Part shown: positions 1,101 through 64,000 of the stretch, piece after piece | How the letters are laid out: every line of letters begins with the position of its first letter | Numbering within the stretch: the stretch's first letter is position 1 | NCBI GenBank assembly: GCA_945862125.1 | Contig: CAMAYC010000001.1 | Span: forward strand, 43,649 to 107,648 | Direction: 5' to 3' | Source: Reyranella massiliensis 521 | GTDB taxonomy: Bacteria > Pseudomonadota > Alphaproteobacteria > Reyranellales > Reyranellaceae | Length of the DNA: 64,000 bases | Notes under the pieces: model-generated | What the model was told of the DNA's origin: nothing | Seen by the model: only the letters and a program-made list of their open reading frames with translations | Databases searched by the model: none | Program-made: the position numbers and the translations under genes

Positions 1101-2272
1101 ATATCGAGCCCAAGATCGCCGCCTTCGCCCACGAACTGACCGCCATCCGGCGTGACATCCACGCCCATCCCGAACTCGGCTTCGAGGAGGAACGGACCAG
1201 CACCATCGTGGCGCAGAAGCTGAAGGAGTGGGGCCTCGAGGTCACGACCGGCATCGGCAAGACCGGCGTCGTCGGAACCATCCGTGTCGGCAACAACCCG
1301 CGGGCCATCGGACTGCGCGCCGACATGGATGCACTGCCGATGGACGAGCTCAACACCTTCGATCATCGCAGCACCCACAAGGGCCGCATGCATGCCTGCG
1401 GCCATGATGGCCACACCACGATGCTGCTGGGCGCCGCCAAGTATCTCTCGGCAACGCGCAATTTCGACGGCACCGTGCATCTCATCTTCCAGCCGGCCGA
1501 GGAGGGCCGCGGCGGCGCCGAGGCGATGGTCAAGGATGGACTCTTCGACAAGTTTCCCTGCGAGCAGATCTTCGGCATGCACAACAGGCCCAAGCTCGAC
1601 GTCGGCAAATTCGCCATTCGTTCGGGTCCGCAGATGGCAGGCGGCGGTCTGTTCGACATCCACATCACCGGCAAGGGGGCCCACGGCGCGCGGCCGGAGA
1701 CCGGCGTCGACCCGGTGATCATCGCCACCCAGATCATCTCGGCGCTGCAGAGTGTAGTATCGCGCAATGTGGCACCGCTCGATTCGGCGGTGATCTCGGT
1801 GACTCAGATGCATTCCGGCGACGCCTACAATGTCATCCCCCAGGAGGCGGTACTGCGCGGCACGGTCCGTGCCTTCCGAAAGGAGACGATGGCACTGATC
1901 AAGGAGCGCATCGAGACGATCTCGGCCGGCATCGCGCACACGCTGGGCGGCAGCGCCAAGGCTGACGTGCGGATCGCCTTTCCGCCGCTGGTCAATGACA
2001 AGGATGCGGTGAAGTTCATCGCCGATGTAGCGGCTGAAATCGTCGGTCCCGAGAACATGAACCGCGAGGGGCCTTACGTGATGGCGTCGGAGGACTTCTC
2101 CTACATGCTCGAGAAAGTGCCCGGCGCCTTCATCAACATCGGCAACGGCGGTGGCGAGGGAGGCTGCGAGGTGCACAATCCCAGCTACGATTTCAACGAC
2201 GATATCCTGACCTTGGGCGCCACGCTGTGGTCGAGGGTCGTCGAAACCAAGCTCGCCAAGGACGCGCGCTGA
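1097..2272 (+). CDS. M20 family metallo-amidohydrolase (hippurate hydrolase-like)
   Basis: A 391-aa dinuclear-metal amidohydrolase of the M20D (HipO/amidohydrolase) group. Visible metal and active-site motifs are LRADMDALPM near residue 75, CGHDGHT near 98 and PAEEGRGGAEAM near 136, with the distal His in VMASEDFSYML near 335. The central lid region contains GKGAHGARPE. The family hydrolyses N-acyl amino acids or related amides in the cytoplasm. It overlaps the preceding hydrolase by four bases and has no strong Shine-Dalgarno of its own, which fits coupling. The length is normal for the family and the gene looks intact. The exact acyl-amino-acid substrate cannot be read from sequence. Confidence 0.92.
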   Translation: MNIEPKIAAFAHELTAIRRDIHAHPELGFEEERTSTIVAQKLKEWGLEVTTGIGKTGVVGTIRVGNNPRAIGLRADMDALPMDELNTFDHRSTHKGRMHACGHDGHTTMLLGAAKYLSATRNFDGTVHLIFQPAEEGRGGAEAMVKDGLFDKFPCEQIFGMHNRPKLDVGKFAIRSGPQMAGGGLFDIHITGKGAHGARPETGVDPVIIATQIISALQSVVSRNVAPLDSAVISVTQMHSGDAYNVIPQEAVLRGTVRAFRKETMALIKERIETISAGIAHTLGGSAKADVRIAFPPLVNDKDAVKFIADVAAEIVGPENMNREGPYVMASEDFSYMLEKVPGAFINIGNGGGEGGCEVHNPSYDFNDDILTLGATLWSRVVETKLAKDAR

Positions 2273-10462: not shown

Positions 10463-10956
10463 GCACCTGTTCCGGTCGGTTTGAAGATCAAGGCCTCGCC
10501 GTTCATGCAATAGCGCAGGCCGGTGGGCTTGGGACCGTCCTTGAAGACATGGCCGAGATGGCCGCCGCAGCGCCGGCAGTGGACCTCGGTCTGGGACATG
10601 AAGAGGAATCCCGTCTCCTGCCGGGTGCCGATCGCCTTGTCGAGCGGCTGCCAGAAGCTCGGCCAGCCGGTGCCGCTGTCGTACTTGGTGGCCGAGGAGA
10701 ACAGCGGCAGTTCGCAGCCGGCGCAGTAGAAGGTCCCGGCGCGCTTCTCGCGGTCGAGCGGACTGGTGCCGGCACGCTCGGTGCCGGCTTTCCGCAGGAC
10801 GGCATATTGTTCCGGTGTCAGCAGGCGCCGCCATTCGGCATTGCTGCGGGTCACTTCGAAGGCGGGGGCCTGTGCATGCGCGCTTCTCGCGCCGATACCG
10901 AAGGCCATGAGGGTGGTGCTCCCCAGGAGGAAATCTCGTCGATCGATCGGGCTCAT
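10459..10956 (-). CDS. msrB: Exported peptide-methionine (R)-S-oxide reductase (Tat signal)
   Basis: 165 aa from ATG 10956; the track start at 11019 would place residues ahead of a signal peptide. The N-terminus MSPIDRRDFLLGSTTLMAFGIGARSAHAQ is a twin-arginine signal. Zinc is bound by two CXXC pairs (YCAGCELPLF and CRRCGGHLGH), GTGWPSF is present, and the catalytic Cys is in RYCMNGEAL. It reduces the R epimer of methionine sulfoxide. Export by Tat implies the zinc protein folds before crossing the membrane. It is followed directly by exported msrA, so the pair repairs both epimers in the periplasm. Confidence 0.95.
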   Translation of the reverse strand: MSPIDRRDFLLGSTTLMAFGIGARSAHAQAPAFEVTRSNAEWRRLLTPEQYAVLRKAGTERAGTSPLDREKRAGTFYCAGCELPLFSSATKYDSGTGWPSFWQPLDKAIGTRQETGFLFMSQTEVHCRRCGGHLGHVFKDGPKPTGLRYCMNGEALIFKPTGTGA

Positions 10957-11061
10957 GGCATCGCTCTTAGCGCTGTCCGCGGGCCGGAAGTAAGGCGATC
11001 CACCATCACCGATGGTCACTTTGTCGTGCGGCCGTCGCGGTCCGGCGCTAAGCTTGTCCTT

Positions 11062-11823
11062 ATGAAACTCAAGGATCAGGTCGCCATCGTCACCGGCGCG
11101 GCGTCCGGCATCGGCGCCGCCTCGGCCCGTTTGTTCGCGGCGGAGGGTGCAAGGCTGGTGCTGGTCGACCAGGATACGGTCGGGCTGGGGCAGGTCGCGG
11201 CCGATATCGAGGCAAGAGGCGGCCGTGCCCTCACCATTCCTGCCGACGTGAGTTCAGACCAGCAGGCACGCGAGGGCGTCGCCAGCGTTATGGAGAAATG
11301 GGGCCGCATCGATGTGCTGCTGACGGCGGCTGGCGCCTCGACCGGCGGCACCGTCGACACGATCGAGGAGGCGGCGTGGGACCGCACCTTCGCCATCAAC
11401 GTTAAGGGCACCTATCTCTGGATCCATTACGCGATCGCCCCGATGATCGCAGCCAGGTCCGGCACCATCGTCACCATCGGCTCGCAACTCGCGCAGTCGA
11501 GCCCGGGCAAGAACGCGGCCTATATCGCCTCCAAGGGCGCCATCGCGTCCCTGACCAAGACCATGGCCGTCGACCACGCCGCCCAGGGGATCCGCGTCAA
11601 TGCGCTGATGCCGGGCGTCATCGACACGCCCATGCCGGCCAAGTCTCTCAAGCGCTATGCCGATCCCGAGGCGATGCGGGCGTTCTGGAAACTGCGCCAT
11701 CCCATGGGTCGCATCGGCCAGCCCGAGGAAGTGGCCAAGGCCGCGCTGTTCCTGGCCTGCGACGACTCCTCTTTCGTCACCGGCACGCTGCTGTTCGTCG
11801 ACGGCGGCTGGACGGCGCACTGA
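11062..11823 (+). CDS. SDR family oxidoreductase
   Basis: 253 aa; the track frame starts far upstream, but ATG 11062 begins the canonical SDR fold (MKLKDQVAIVTGAASGIGAASARLF). TGxxxGxG is the NAD(P) loop, Asp in LVLVDQDTVG fits NAD, and the catalytic set is Ser in TIGSQLAQ plus Tyr-Ile-Ala-Ser-Lys (AAYIASKGA). PGVIDTPM and the C-terminal GTLLFVDGGWTAH complete the family pattern. It is the first gene of a run with a PhyH dioxygenase and a polysaccharide deacetylase-like protein, joined by a TGATG overlap. The substrate is probably the same metabolite those enzymes handle. Confidence 0.93.
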   Translation: MKLKDQVAIVTGAASGIGAASARLFAAEGARLVLVDQDTVGLGQVAADIEARGGRALTIPADVSSDQQAREGVASVMEKWGRIDVLLTAAGASTGGTVDTIEEAAWDRTFAINVKGTYLWIHYAIAPMIAARSGTIVTIGSQLAQSSPGKNAAYIASKGAIASLTKTMAVDHAAQGIRVNALMPGVIDTPMPAKSLKRYADPEAMRAFWKLRHPMGRIGQPEEVAKAALFLACDDSSFVTGTLLFVDGGWTAH

Positions 11824-12665
11824 TGCCGAAGAAGCTCACGGCCGAGCAGATCTCGGGCTACGAACGGGACGGCTATGTCTGCCCGGTCGACGGTTTCACG
11901 ACTGAACAGGCGCGCGGTTGGCGCGACCGGCTGGAAGCGTTCGAGCGTGCCGAAGGCCGCAAGATGACTCGGGGTCACAATTTCAAGCCGCATCTTCTCT
12001 TTCCCTGGGTCGACGAGATCGTGCACTCGCCGCACGTGCTCGACGCGGTCGAGGACCTGATCGGGCCGGACATAAGGCTGTTCCATCTCACGGTGTGGCC
12101 CAAAGATGCGCAGAGCGGCGCCTATGTCAGCTGGCACCAGGATGCGACCTACTTCGCGCTGGAGCCCGCCTGCCATGTCACCGCCTGGGTGGCGCTGACC
12201 GATGCGCCGATCGAGGCGGGCTGCATGGAAGTGGTGCCGGGATCGCACAAGCTCGGCCAGATGCAGCACGCCGAGATGCAGGACCCGGAGAACCTGCTGT
12301 CACGCGGCCAGGCATTGGCCGTCGATGTCGACCGAACGCGCACCGAATTCATGCCGGTAAAGGCCGGACAGTTCTCGCTGCACCATACGCATCTCGTGCA
12401 CAATTCGCGGCCGAACCGCTCGAACGACCGGCGCATCGGACTCGGCGTCAGCTACATCCCGACCCATGCACGCTGCACCAGCACGACCCGCGTCACCGCC
12501 ATGCTGGTTCGTGGCCGCGACACCTATGGGCACTTCGACGACGAGCGCCGGCCGCGCGCCGAAGCCGGGCCGGAGGAGCGCGCCTTTCATGAAAAGGCCG
12601 TCGCCATTTTCCGGCAGATGAATGCCGAGCAGACCGAGAACAAGTCCGCGGTCGTGAAACGCTGA
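11823..12665 (+). CDS. Phytanoyl-CoA dioxygenase family protein
   Basis: 280 aa, a PhyH-type Fe(II)/2-oxoglutarate oxygenase. The iron facial triad is visible as SWHQDATYF (His and Asp near residues 105-107) and the distal His in HLVHNSRPNRSNDRRIGLG, with Arg for 2-oxoglutarate. The N-terminal helix begins KKLTAEQISGYERDGYVCPVDGFT, typical of the family. It hydroxylates an unactivated carbon. Its ATG overlaps the SDR stop (TGATG), so a hydroxylation followed by oxidation of the alcohol by the SDR is a reasonable inference. The substrate is not evident. Confidence 0.92.
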   Translation: MPKKLTAEQISGYERDGYVCPVDGFTTEQARGWRDRLEAFERAEGRKMTRGHNFKPHLLFPWVDEIVHSPHVLDAVEDLIGPDIRLFHLTVWPKDAQSGAYVSWHQDATYFALEPACHVTAWVALTDAPIEAGCMEVVPGSHKLGQMQHAEMQDPENLLSRGQALAVDVDRTRTEFMPVKAGQFSLHHTHLVHNSRPNRSNDRRIGLGVSYIPTHARCTSTTRVTAMLVRGRDTYGHFDDERRPRAEAGPEERAFHEKAVAIFRQMNAEQTENKSAVVKR

Positions 12666-60240: not shown

Positions 60241-62379
60241 TTGGCCTCGGACAGCGAAGTTCCAGCCGATACCGCGCGCCCAGTGCGGTGGGGGCTCTCG
60301 CTTCGGCTGTTCGCGATCCTGACCTTGCTGGGGGCGATCGCCGTCCTCGTCACCGGCACCCTGGGCTATGTCCGTGCGCACGATGCGCTTGAACAGGCGA
60401 TCTACAACCAGCTCACGACGGCGCGCCAGATCAAGGCGCGCCAGGTCGAGACCTACTTCCGGACGATCCATGCCGAGCTGCGCTTGCTCGCGACTTCGAA
60501 GATGGTCGTCGAGGCGTCGCGCGAGTTTCGCGTTGCGTTCAACGAGCTCGACCGCGAGCCGTTGACCGACGACATCCGTCAAAAGGTGAGCGACTGGTAC
60601 GGCGTGCATTTCGTGCCCGAGATCAGCCGCGTCCTCGGCACGGCGCCGGTCCTTGCCGATTACCTGCCGGTCGGTTCAGGCGCCAACTATCTCCAGTACC
60701 ACTACATCGTGACGAATCCGCACGCCGAGGCGCGCCGGCGACTGGTCGACGATCCTGGCGACGGCAGTCGCTACAGCAAGTTGCACGCAATCTATCACCC
60801 GCTCATGCGCGCCGCCGCCACGACCGTCGGATTCGACGATTTCATGATTGCCGATCCGAAATCCGGCCGCCTGATCTACACCGTCGACAAGGAAGTAGAT
60901 TTCGCCACATCGACCCACGTCGGGCCTTATCGGAAGACCAGTTTGGCGGCCGCCATCGCCCGTTGTTCCGGGATGGCCGACCGATCCGCCGTATGCCTCG
61001 AGGATTTTACGCTGTATGCGCCGGCGGGCGGTGAGCCGACCGCCTTCATGGCCGCCCCTGTGATCGACGAGGGGGTGGTGATCGGCGTGCTGATCGCCCA
61101 ACTGTCGGACAACGAGATCGACAAAGTCGTGACCGGCGACAGGCGTTGGAAGCACGAAGGGTTCGGCGACACCGGCGAGGCCTACCTCGTCGGTCCAGAT
61201 CATTTGCTGCGTTCCGGCCCGCGCGCGTTCTATGAGAATCGCGAGCGCTACTTCGCCGAACTGAAGGCCATCGGTACGCCCGAGGCGGAGATAGAGGCCA
61301 TCCGCCGCTTCGACACGCCGATCCTGATCCAGCACATCGACACCAAGGCAAGCCAGTCCGCGCTGGCCGGCGCCGAAGGCATCGGCGAGATCATCGGTTA
61401 TCGCGGCATCCCGACGCTGGCGTCATGGGGGCCGCTCTCCATCGCCGGTGTCAAGTGGGCGCTTATCGCCAAGATCGACAGCGCCGAAGCCTTCGCGCCG
61501 ATCTACAAGCTGCGGCAGGACCTGGTGATCGTGGGCGGGCTCGCGCTGATGGTGGTGGTCCTGACCGGAGGATGGCTGTCGCGCGCCCTGCTCGGGCCGT
61601 TGCGCGAGCTTACCGCTGGCGTGAAGCGCTTCGCCGCCGGCGATTACGGCGCCAAGGTGGCTGTCCGGACCCACGACGAGATCGGCCAGCTCTGCTTTGC
61701 CTTCAACGGCATGGTCGATGAGCTGCGCGAGAAGAACCTCATGATCGAGGGCAAGAACCGCGAGAACGAGGAGCTGCTGTTGAACGTCCTGCCGGCGCCG
61801 ATCGCAAACCGGCTGCGCGGCGGCGAGCAGGGCATCGCCGACGGTTTCGCCGAGGTCACGGTCGCCTTTGCCGATCTGGTGGGCTTCACGGCGCTGTCCT
61901 CGGAGATGCCCCCGCAGGAAGTCGTGACGCTGCTCAACGGTCTGTTCACACGCTTTGATGTCGCGGCCCAGGAGCTGGGCATCGAGAAGATCAAGACCGT
62001 GGGCGACGCCTATATGGCGGTCTGCGGCCTGCCCGTGCCCGTCGCCAATCACGCGGAGCGCATGGTGCGTATGGCGATCCGCATGGTCCACATCACGCGC
62101 GAACATGCTCTGGAGCACCAGGTATCAATGAAGCTGCGCGTCGGCATCAACAGCGGCCCGGTGGTGGCCGGCGTCATCGGCAAGAGCAAGTACATCTACG
62201 ACCTGTGGGGAGATACGGTAAATCTTGCCAGTCGCATGGAATCGGGTGGTATTCCCGACTCCATACAGGTCACTCGCCCGGTCTATGAGAAGTTGCAGGG
62301 TCTGTTCGCCTTCGAGCCGCGTGGCGCCATTGAGGTCAAGGGCAAGGGCAACGTCGAAGCGTGGCTCCTGAGGCTGTAG
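60241..62379 (+). CDS. Membrane adenylate/guanylate cyclase with Cache-like sensor and HAMP
   Basis: 712 aa from TTG 60241, spaced after AAGGGA. The first helix, about 18-42 (LSLRLFAILTLLGAIAVLVTGTL), is followed by a Cache-like periplasmic domain to about 415. A second helix, about 420-445 (LRQDLVIVGGLALMVVVLTGG), leads to HAMP (LLGPLRELTAGVKRFAAGDYGAKV). The class III cyclase domain, about 530-710, has VAFADLVGFTALSS, GIEKIKTVGDAYMAVCGLP and YIYDLWGDTVNLASRMES. Both metal Asp residues are present, so it should be active, making cAMP (or cGMP). It probably senses a small ligand outside the membrane. Confidence 0.93.
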   Translation: MASDSEVPADTARPVRWGLSLRLFAILTLLGAIAVLVTGTLGYVRAHDALEQAIYNQLTTARQIKARQVETYFRTIHAELRLLATSKMVVEASREFRVAFNELDREPLTDDIRQKVSDWYGVHFVPEISRVLGTAPVLADYLPVGSGANYLQYHYIVTNPHAEARRRLVDDPGDGSRYSKLHAIYHPLMRAAATTVGFDDFMIADPKSGRLIYTVDKEVDFATSTHVGPYRKTSLAAAIARCSGMADRSAVCLEDFTLYAPAGGEPTAFMAAPVIDEGVVIGVLIAQLSDNEIDKVVTGDRRWKHEGFGDTGEAYLVGPDHLLRSGPRAFYENRERYFAELKAIGTPEAEIEAIRRFDTPILIQHIDTKASQSALAGAEGIGEIIGYRGIPTLASWGPLSIAGVKWALIAKIDSAEAFAPIYKLRQDLVIVGGLALMVVVLTGGWLSRALLGPLRELTAGVKRFAAGDYGAKVAVRTHDEIGQLCFAFNGMVDELREKNLMIEGKNRENEELLLNVLPAPIANRLRGGEQGIADGFAEVTVAFADLVGFTALSSEMPPQEVVTLLNGLFTRFDVAAQELGIEKIKTVGDAYMAVCGLPVPVANHAERMVRMAIRMVHITREHALEHQVSMKLRVGINSGPVVAGVIGKSKYIYDLWGDTVNLASRMESGGIPDSIQVTRPVYEKLQGLFAFEPRGAIEVKGKGNVEAWLLRL

Positions 62380-62403
62380 GATTCATCCTGAAGCAGGGGC
62401 CTT

Positions 62404-62640
62404 GTGGTCGAGCGCTCGCGCACTGTAGATGAGGCAACTAGCGCATCCGGGAGTTCATTCGTGCCGAACGAGTCCGCCAAAATCGATCTTGCGAATCTCA
62501 TGATCAGGAAAGCTGGCCTGATCCGCACCGTGCGGGACGAATTGGCCAAGCAGGGCGTGGTCTATTGGGCTGGCCTCACCGAGATTCTCGATGCCATCGA
62601 ACGGGCGCGCGGCGAGGAGTCCGGCGAGCAAGCCCGATGA
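62404..62640 (+). CDS. Small hypothetical protein
   Basis: 78 aa from GTG 62404 after AGGGG. Polar N-terminus, then LANLMIRKAGLIRTVRDELAKQGVVYWAGLTEILDAIERARGEES, probably helical. The stop overlaps the next ATG (ATGA), which supports that both are real. No recognised domain. It lies 25 nt after the cyclase. Confidence 0.6.
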   Translation: MVERSRTVDEATSASGSSFVPNESAKIDLANLMIRKAGLIRTVRDELAKQGVVYWAGLTEILDAIERARGEESGEQAR

Positions 62641-63014
62641 CGCTCGGGGGGCTCACGCTCATCTACCTGGCCTGCGGTGCGGCGACCCTGCCACTCAGCA
62701 TCGTGGTACTTCGGTTCATCGTGTCGCTGTCGGCGCCGAATGGCGAGGCGCGCGAGATCGATCGCGTGTTCGATCGCGCCATCGACGTGTCGGTCTTCCT
62801 CTGGATCGTGGGCGGCCTGGTCTTCTATTTCTGCGCGGCGCATATCGAGCGCCGGAAGCCCTGCGGCGAGCAGCGCACCAATCAACTGACCGCTGACTGT
62901 CGGCGGCAGCTCGGGGCATTCAATATCAGGGGCGACGCAGAAGATCGCATTGAGCAGCTCGTCGCGCGCGCGATGCTTCAGGCTAGTTCGACGCCTCGCC
63001 GCGAGCCAGCCTGA
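62637..63014 (+). CDS. Small two-helix membrane protein
   Basis: 125 aa from ATG 62637. Two hydrophobic segments (about 5-30 and 52-72) and a soluble C-terminal part (ADCRRQLGAFNIRGDAEDRIEQLVARAML). It overlaps the 3' end of the convergent lipoprotein gene by 32 nt. No family recognised; coupling to the upstream small ORF suggests one operon with the cyclase. Confidence 0.65.
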   Translation: MTLGGLTLIYLACGAATLPLSIVVLRFIVSLSAPNGEAREIDRVFDRAIDVSVFLWIVGGLVFYFCAAHIERRKPCGEQRTNQLTADCRRQLGAFNIRGDAEDRIEQLVARAMLQASSTPRREPA

Positions 63015-63348
63015 CATAGCGCAAGGCCCTGGCGTCGTTGTCCGCCATGATCGCCGCTGTCACCTGTGGGTCCTGGTAGGGGTTGGTGACGGCAATGAGC
63101 TGGTTGGTCTCGGGCATGCACGACAGGGAAACAGCCCTGGCAACGCTGGCAACATCCGGCTCGCCGGTTGTCGGAGCGGCATTCTTCGTAAAGCAAGCGT
63201 CTCGCGCGTCGTACGCCCGCTCGACCTTGGTAACCTCCCTGGGGTGGCTGTAGCCGCCGGCCTTGAACAGCGCCGGGCTGTTGCAGGCACCCAGCGTCAG
63301 CGCCAGGAGCACCAGGCCGGCTCGGGTCGGATGATGCAGGGTTATCAA
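62983..63348 (-). CDS. Hypothetical lipoprotein, tandem copy 2
   Basis: 121 aa starting at TTG 63348, which overlaps the upstream stop (TTGA). Signal ends LVLLALTLGACNSP, a lipobox with Cys. The mature part YSHPREVTKVERAYDARDACFTKNAAPTTGEPDVASVARAVSLSCMPETNQLIAVTNPYQDPQVTAAI is very similar in pattern to the next gene, including the paired Cys (DACF and SCMPET). Function unknown. Tandem duplication is likely. Confidence 0.75.
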   Translation of the reverse strand: MITLHHPTRAGLVLLALTLGACNSPALFKAGGYSHPREVTKVERAYDARDACFTKNAAPTTGEPDVASVARAVSLSCMPETNQLIAVTNPYQDPQVTAAIMADNDARALRYVRLARGEASN

Positions 63349-63701
63349 CGCGGTGCCCTCATGATGTACAGCATTGCCCGCCGGTCCGTGTCGTTGCGGA
63401 TCGCCAGGGCGACTTGCGGGTCGCGGTCGGGATTGCTCGCGACGATGAGCCGGTCGGTCTCGGGCGCACAGGCCAAGGCAACGGCCTTGGCGATGCTGGC
63501 AATGTCCGAATTGCTGGTGTCCGAGGGGACGGCATTCTTGGCGAGACAGGCGTCCCTGGCCTCGTAAAGGCGCTTGATGCGGTTGACCGTCATCGGACTG
63601 CTGTATTCGTTGCTTTCGAAAATGACGTCACGGCTGCAAGCCCCCAGGGAGAGCGCGAGGACGGCCACGGCGGCTCGCGGCAACGATCTCAGAGACTTCA
63701 T
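63345..63701 (-). CDS. Hypothetical lipoprotein, tandem copy 1
   Basis: 118 aa from ATG 63701; GTG 63716 is the tracked alternative. Lipobox LSLGACSRD. YSSPMTVNRIKRLYEARDACLAKNAVPSDTSNSDIASIAKAVALACAPETDRLIVASNPDRDPQVALAIRNDTDRRAM mirrors the neighbour's layout (ARDACxxKNA, ACAPET, DPQV). The two conserved Cys could form a disulfide in the periplasm. Function unknown. Confidence 0.78.
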   Translation of the reverse strand: MKSLRSLPRAAVAVLALSLGACSRDVIFESNEYSSPMTVNRIKRLYEARDACLAKNAVPSDTSNSDIASIAKAVALACAPETDRLIVASNPDRDPQVALAIRNDTDRRAMLYIMRAPR

Positions 63702-63746
63702 CAGTAGAGTGCTCACGCTCGTCCTGGGACCAGGTCACGGAAAACT

Positions 63747-63793
63747 TGGCGGACCCGGCGAGATTCGAACTCACGACCTCTGCCTTCGGAGGG
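63747..63793 (-). pseudogene. tRNA-Arg(CCG) 3' fragment, possible att remnant
   Basis: Read on the minus strand, CCCTCCGAAGGCAG then GTGAG-TTCGAAT-CTCGC and CGGGTCC-G-CCA is the 3' part of a tRNA-Arg from the anticodon loop (CTCCGAA, anticodon CCG) to the encoded CCA. The T-arm stem is intact. Upstream, the expected CTGCC anticodon stem is replaced by AGACC and no normal D-arm is visible. A GGACTTA at 63817-63811 could partly pair with the acceptor, so a badly decayed whole tRNA is possible. Such 3' halves are typical leftovers of integration. Confidence 0.65.
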
Positions 63794-63876
63794 TCTGGCT
63801 CCCGTCTCGCTAAGTCCTTGATATTGCGGCGGGATCGATAGCGCGGTTTCCGCCGCGTGGCAACAACGTGCCATCG

Positions 63877-64000
63877 TCACTGTGAGGAATCACCCGGTCC
63901 CGGCTTGGTGCCCTGGTCCGCGGTGCCGGCGTCGAGGGCGGCGATCATCATCTTCTTCATCTCGCGGAACATGTTGAGCCGGACGATCTCGTGATCGGTC
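63877..64000 (-). CDS. C-terminal end of a protein running off the right edge
   Basis: On the minus strand the last 41 codons read TDHEIVRLNMFREMKKMMIAALDAGTADQGTKPGPGDSSQ and TGA. An amphipathic helix with MKKMM is followed by a polar tail. The rest lies outside the window; no family can be assigned. It is upstream of the tRNA fragment. Confidence 0.5.
   Translation of the reverse strand, partial: TDHEIVRLNMFREMKKMMIAALDAGTADQGTKPGPGDSSQ

Follow-up and report, generated by a model that had tools for sequence, protein, structure and literature searches.

A displaced 3' part of tRNA-Arg(CCG) at a contig end of Reyranella massiliensis 521 as the probable end of an integrated element

Results

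The tRNA fragment and its surroundings

The DNA analysed here is a stretch of 64,000 nt from the draft genome of Reyranella massiliensis 521 (G000, contig C1, positions 43649-107648), which is called the window in the following. Contig C1 has a length of 107648 bp and ends together with the window, 207 bp past a 47-nt block that corresponds to the 3' part of a tRNA gene. The block is preceded on its left by a cyclase gene, two small open reading frames and a tandem pair of small lipoprotein genes, and is followed on its right by the truncated end of a further open reading frame (Table 1).

Table 1. Coordinates of the features at the right end of the window
Feature	Position	Strand	Remarks
dCache-HAMP adenylate/guanylate cyclase	60241..62379	+	Ancestral flank by synteny; Pfam PF00211, PF00672
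78-aa ORF, family unknown	62404..62640	+	Ancestral flank by synteny
125-aa ORF, family unknown	62637..63014	+	Ancestral flank by synteny; same place in L155, G032, G019, G018, G021 and G023
Small lipoprotein 1	62983..63348	-	Ancestral flank by synteny; tandem paralogue, 48% identical to lipoprotein 2
Small lipoprotein 2 (LGAC lipobox)	63345..63716	-	First ancestral gene downstream of the tRNA by synteny; follows intact tRNA-Arg(CCG) in L155 (88%), G032 (78%), G019 and L126
3' part of tRNA-Arg(CCG), 47 nt	63747..63793	-	Displaced fragment, putative distal att site; 100% identity to the intact genes of relatives
Element-side sequence, putative first 207 bp of inserted DNA	63794..64000		Absent from the empty sites L155, G032 and G019
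ORF tail, last 40 codons	63877..63999	-	Oriented towards the scar; searches of relatives, phages, plasmids, Pfam and PHROGs gave no homologue

Read on the minus strand from 63793 to 63747, the block has the sequence CCCTCCGAAGGCAGAGGTCGTGAGTTCGAATCTCGCCGGGTCCGCCA and comprises tRNA-Arg(CCG) from position 30, in the anticodon stem, to the CCA. The intact tRNA-Arg(CCG) of most Reyranella genomes has a 3' part that is 100% identical to the block over 45-48 nt, with an E-value of about 1e-18 per genome, and exact 45-nt matches in named records come mostly from Reyranella and other alphaproteobacteria. An exact match of 47 nt that stops precisely at the CCA far exceeds what could arise by chance. 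The bases preceding the block on the minus strand are ..GACGGGAGCCAGA, at a place where the intact genes read GGACCCGTAGCTCAGCTGGATAGAGCGCTG, and the 5' half of the tRNA is absent from the window.

An initial annotation of this DNA had described about 47 nt from the anticodon loop to the CCA as matching a tRNA-Arg and the 5' half as not being tRNA. Both statements hold, the match being exact over its 47 nt. The feature had been drawn up to 63817, which overshoots into unrelated sequence; its true end is at 63793. A full tRNA reported by a covariance model had been named as a possible objection to a scar, and the Rfam search, run on window positions 62000-64000 and up to E = 1, reported nothing. 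ARAGORN did not call a tRNA gene in the whole window either. A full functional tRNA-Arg(CCG) at this site was consequently rejected, there being no complete cloverleaf, no 5' half and no match with either program.

Empty sites in relatives

The closest relative with an empty site is a Reyranella metagenome-assembled genome (contig JAUXRT010000624.1, locus L155). Here, the intact tRNA-Arg(CCG) directly precedes the two lipoprotein genes (first 2, then 1), the ORFs of 125 and 78 aa and the gene of the dCache-HAMP cyclase. Identity to the left flank of the window amounts to 89.7% over 4.45 kb, with a further 1 kb at 93%, and the sequence upstream of the tRNA is 92.9% identical to the upstream flank of G023. 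The same intact arrangement is found in G032 (82%), G019 and L126, so that all of these loci show the precise uninterrupted site which the Islander definition looks for in relatives.

Because the left-hand genes directly follow the intact tRNA in L155, G032, G019 and L126, the lipoproteins and small ORFs belong to the pre-existing chromosome and are not cargo of the element behind this scar. By the same comparison, the DNA from 63794 rightwards is evidently foreign to the ancestral site, since the empty-site relatives have the left flank straight after the intact tRNA. These last 207 bp of C1 occur only once in the genome and have no close match in the other fetched loci; being unique, they do not overlap with another contig end by which C1 could have been extended.

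The tandem lipoprotein pair (window 62983-63716) gave no match in Pfam or PHROGs. Relatives of these lipoproteins are present in 35 Reyranella genomes, often paired and mostly at other genome positions, and none were found in the other genera searched.

Occupied sites and integrases in relatives

In G018 the flank is the same, and so is the part of the tRNA at which the scar starts; a 415-aa tyrosine integrase (domains PF00589 and Arm-DNA-bind_3; PHROG 1) is encoded within 200 bp of the scar on its element side. L146 is another occupied site bearing the same flank. In G016, a genome assembled as one contig, the whole arrangement is present, with the intact tRNA at 938447, a 17.9-kb island, an integrase at 954877-956313 and the scar at 956376; a further tRNA-Arg(CCG) scar follows at 959384, 3.0 kb beyond the first. 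Further scars of this tRNA with an adjoining integrase are present in G022, G008, G034 and G033, and in G022 and G008 the integrases read away from the scars. G021 has a short scar of about 14 nt of the acceptor end together with an integrase. In G023, a neighbouring species, a decayed fragment, GTTCATTCCAACTGGCCCGCCA, lies before the same flank, with ABC-transporter DNA adjoining.

When only fragments away from contig edges are counted, scars of tRNA-Arg(CCG) are present in about 15 of the 37 Reyranella genomes examined. On the evidence of these sequences, tRNA-Arg(CCG) is evidently a recurrent integration site in Reyranella, at which the crossovers are predicted to fall in the anticodon stem-loop.

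The assemblies of G018 and G022 contain scars of tRNA-Arg(CCG), and no intact gene was detected in them. The G022 assembly consists of one contig, in which two of these scars lie 17.6 kb apart with an integrase near each (C1:3868001-3920000; L085, L086, L242); a gap of 503 N about 17 kb upstream of the first scar may hide the intact tRNA-Arg(CCG).

Discussion

Proposed integration event

We interpret the 47-nt block, with a probability of roughly 0.93, as the distal att site left when a mobile element entered tRNA-Arg(CCG) through a tyrosine integrase that recombined at the anticodon stem-loop. According to this model, the element would have been a genomic island, an integrative element or a prophage whose attP brought along a further copy of the tRNA 3' half. 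Integration would have rebuilt an intact tRNA at one end of the element and would have left the original 3' half at the other end, beside the chromosomal DNA that had followed the gene before. This older DNA would then occupy the window below 63747, and the element would start at 63794 and be cut by the contig end.

The fragment itself, the empty sites of relatives, the foreign DNA on the right and the integrases beside the same scars in relatives are what was observed. By analogy with these relatives, the element of this genome probably carries, or once carried, a tyrosine integrase. What speaks against the model is that neither an intact tRNA-Arg(CCG) nor an integrase that could be linked to this scar was found in the draft genome, and that no mobile-element gene was seen in the 207 bp to the right of the scar. 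The initial annotation had likewise considered a scar left by an integrase targeting a tRNA 3' end, and this part is backed by the empty sites and by the relatives that combine flank, scar and integrase. It had placed the island on the wrong side, the element lying to the right of the scar and not to the left.

Of the 3919 islands of the Islander catalogue, 2083 are integrated at the anticodon subsite, and 3' fragments accompany 3760; the commonest configuration is a 3' fragment located downstream, in the same orientation and with the anticodon subsite (PMC4383910). The 47-nt block is an end fragment in the sense of the Islander definition, namely a displaced tRNA fragment whose 3' side extends to the CCA. 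Like the islands of the anticodon ('A') subsite (PMC4383910), the locus combines a tRNA 3' fragment up to the CCA and a putative crossover at the anticodon stem-loop with foreign DNA on the side where the orientation of the tRNA predicts it and with tyrosine integrases at the same site in relatives. It differs from the catalogue entries (PMC4383910) in that the intact tRNA and the integrase of this element are unassembled, so that the locus would fail the Islander filters in this draft. In Sinorhizobium meliloti a few tRNA genes are repeatedly used by islands and prophages (PMC11476347). The direct repeats at the 3' ends are about as long there, one of them measuring 49 bp; the genus is a different one, and the tRNA genes named, Lys(CUU) and Asn(GUU), are others.

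A literature search on genomic islands in Reyranella gave nothing relevant among the papers it covered. The scar is an ordinary instance of a well-described kind of tRNA integration and leaves the known principles unchanged. The case records tRNA-Arg(CCG) as a site of repeated integration in Reyranella, and it illustrates how an island can stay hidden behind a contig end in a draft genome while the genes that look like cargo are old chromosome.

Alternative explanations

The scar may be an old one beside an element that has in part decayed. Going further, the scar could be dead altogether, the element having been lost or decayed and the 207 bp on the right being unrelated DNA brought in via a later deletion or rearrangement. 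The decayed fragment of G023 with its adjoining ABC-transporter DNA and the short remnant in G021 are in favour of such a course, as is the lack of a visible integrase in the 207 bp. The 47 nt of the block are undamaged, however. This points to an event in the fairly recent past or to a block still in use as an att site, and we therefore regard a dead scar as unlikely.

A second alternative is an assembly chimera joined at the 47-nt repeat or at its end, in which case the 207 bp on the right would be misplaced. The contig does stop 207 bp further on, and contigs of another Reyranella metagenome-assembled genome (L117, L153) break exactly at this repeat. Such a chimera would nevertheless presuppose that the 3' half is truly present a second time with foreign DNA lying upstream; that copy would itself be a scar, and the same architecture is present in the independent genomes G016 and G018. 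This makes a misassembly very improbable.

The initial annotation had taken the tandem lipoproteins and small ORFs on the left for cargo of the old island that made the scar. Although these genes are located between tRNA and cyclase in one subclade only, with different DNA at this place in L112, L108 and L157, this version is hardly tenable, as they directly follow the intact tRNA in the empty-site genomes, the displaced 3' fragment adjoins old chromosome in the direction of the tRNA, so that the left side cannot be this element, and the far side of the left block has no second tRNA fragment. For this scar, the empty sites refute the lipoproteins as cargo. From its distribution, the lipoprotein block may be an older insertion in the ancestor of the subclade; neither a second tRNA fragment nor an integrase marking such an insertion was found.

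The expected intact tRNA and the unassembled gap

We return to the integrated element and to the intact tRNA that should accompany it. The intact partner had been expected elsewhere in the genome, and the absence of a second copy had been named as a refutation of the scar. A second copy of the 47-nt block was indeed not found in the draft genome, but the contig stops inside the element and other essential tRNAs are missing as well. CGG codons occur in the genes of the window, eight of them in the cyclase gene, and the ICG anticodon, which is made from ACG, does not read CGG by the established decoding rules. An intact tRNA-Arg(CCG) should therefore exist in the genome. Among the 41 tRNAs over the threshold in the draft, those for arginine are Arg(ACG), Arg(TCT) and Arg(CCT), and an intact tRNA-Arg(CCG) is not included. 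Since tRNA-Trp, tRNA-Tyr, tRNA-Ile(GAT) and tRNA-Gly(TCC) are also lacking among the 41, its absence means little. For a contig that ends inside the element, in a draft without indispensable tRNAs, the missing second copy is thus no valid refutation.

A comparison with G023, G032 and G019 assigns the flank upstream of the tRNA to contig C27 of the draft, and 5.8 kb are missing between the start of C27 and the tRNA. The gene situated just upstream of the tRNA in G032, a YqhA-like gene, was not found in the draft. Because C27 stops short of the tRNA and the YqhA-like gene is missing, we infer that the unassembled stretch between C27 and C1 is the probable location of both the intact tRNA-Arg(CCG) and the element. 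That the lineage truly has no intact chromosomal tRNA-Arg(CCG), and relies on a copy on the unseen element or reads CGG otherwise, is barely conceivable.

Other tRNA-linked sites in the draft genome

A second scar is located on contig C142 (L193), where 10556-10623 on the minus strand contains 48 nt of the 3' part of tRNA-Thr(CGT), the intact copy being on C31. A tyrosine integrase is encoded on the element side of this scar (about 10855-11937, plus strand) and is 37% identical to that of G018; the contig ends just after it. The third scar, on contig C56 (L195) at about 68-126 on the plus strand, comprises 59 nt of the 3' part of tRNA-Leu(CAA), with an intact copy on C29. The element side of the C56 scar is again cut, in this case by the contig start, so that the draft seems to lack elements at tRNA genes in a systematic way.

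On contig C234 (L194) an intact tRNA-Val(CAC) (1894-1965, minus strand) has an integrase domain (1337-1774, plus strand) no more than 120 bp from its 3' end, and both together are probably the tRNA end of another integrated element. Contig C127 (L196) contains a tRNA-like sequence at 544-617 on the minus strand which scores 21 bits, below the Rfam cut-off, and is not called by ARAGORN; it may be a decayed or unusual tRNA.
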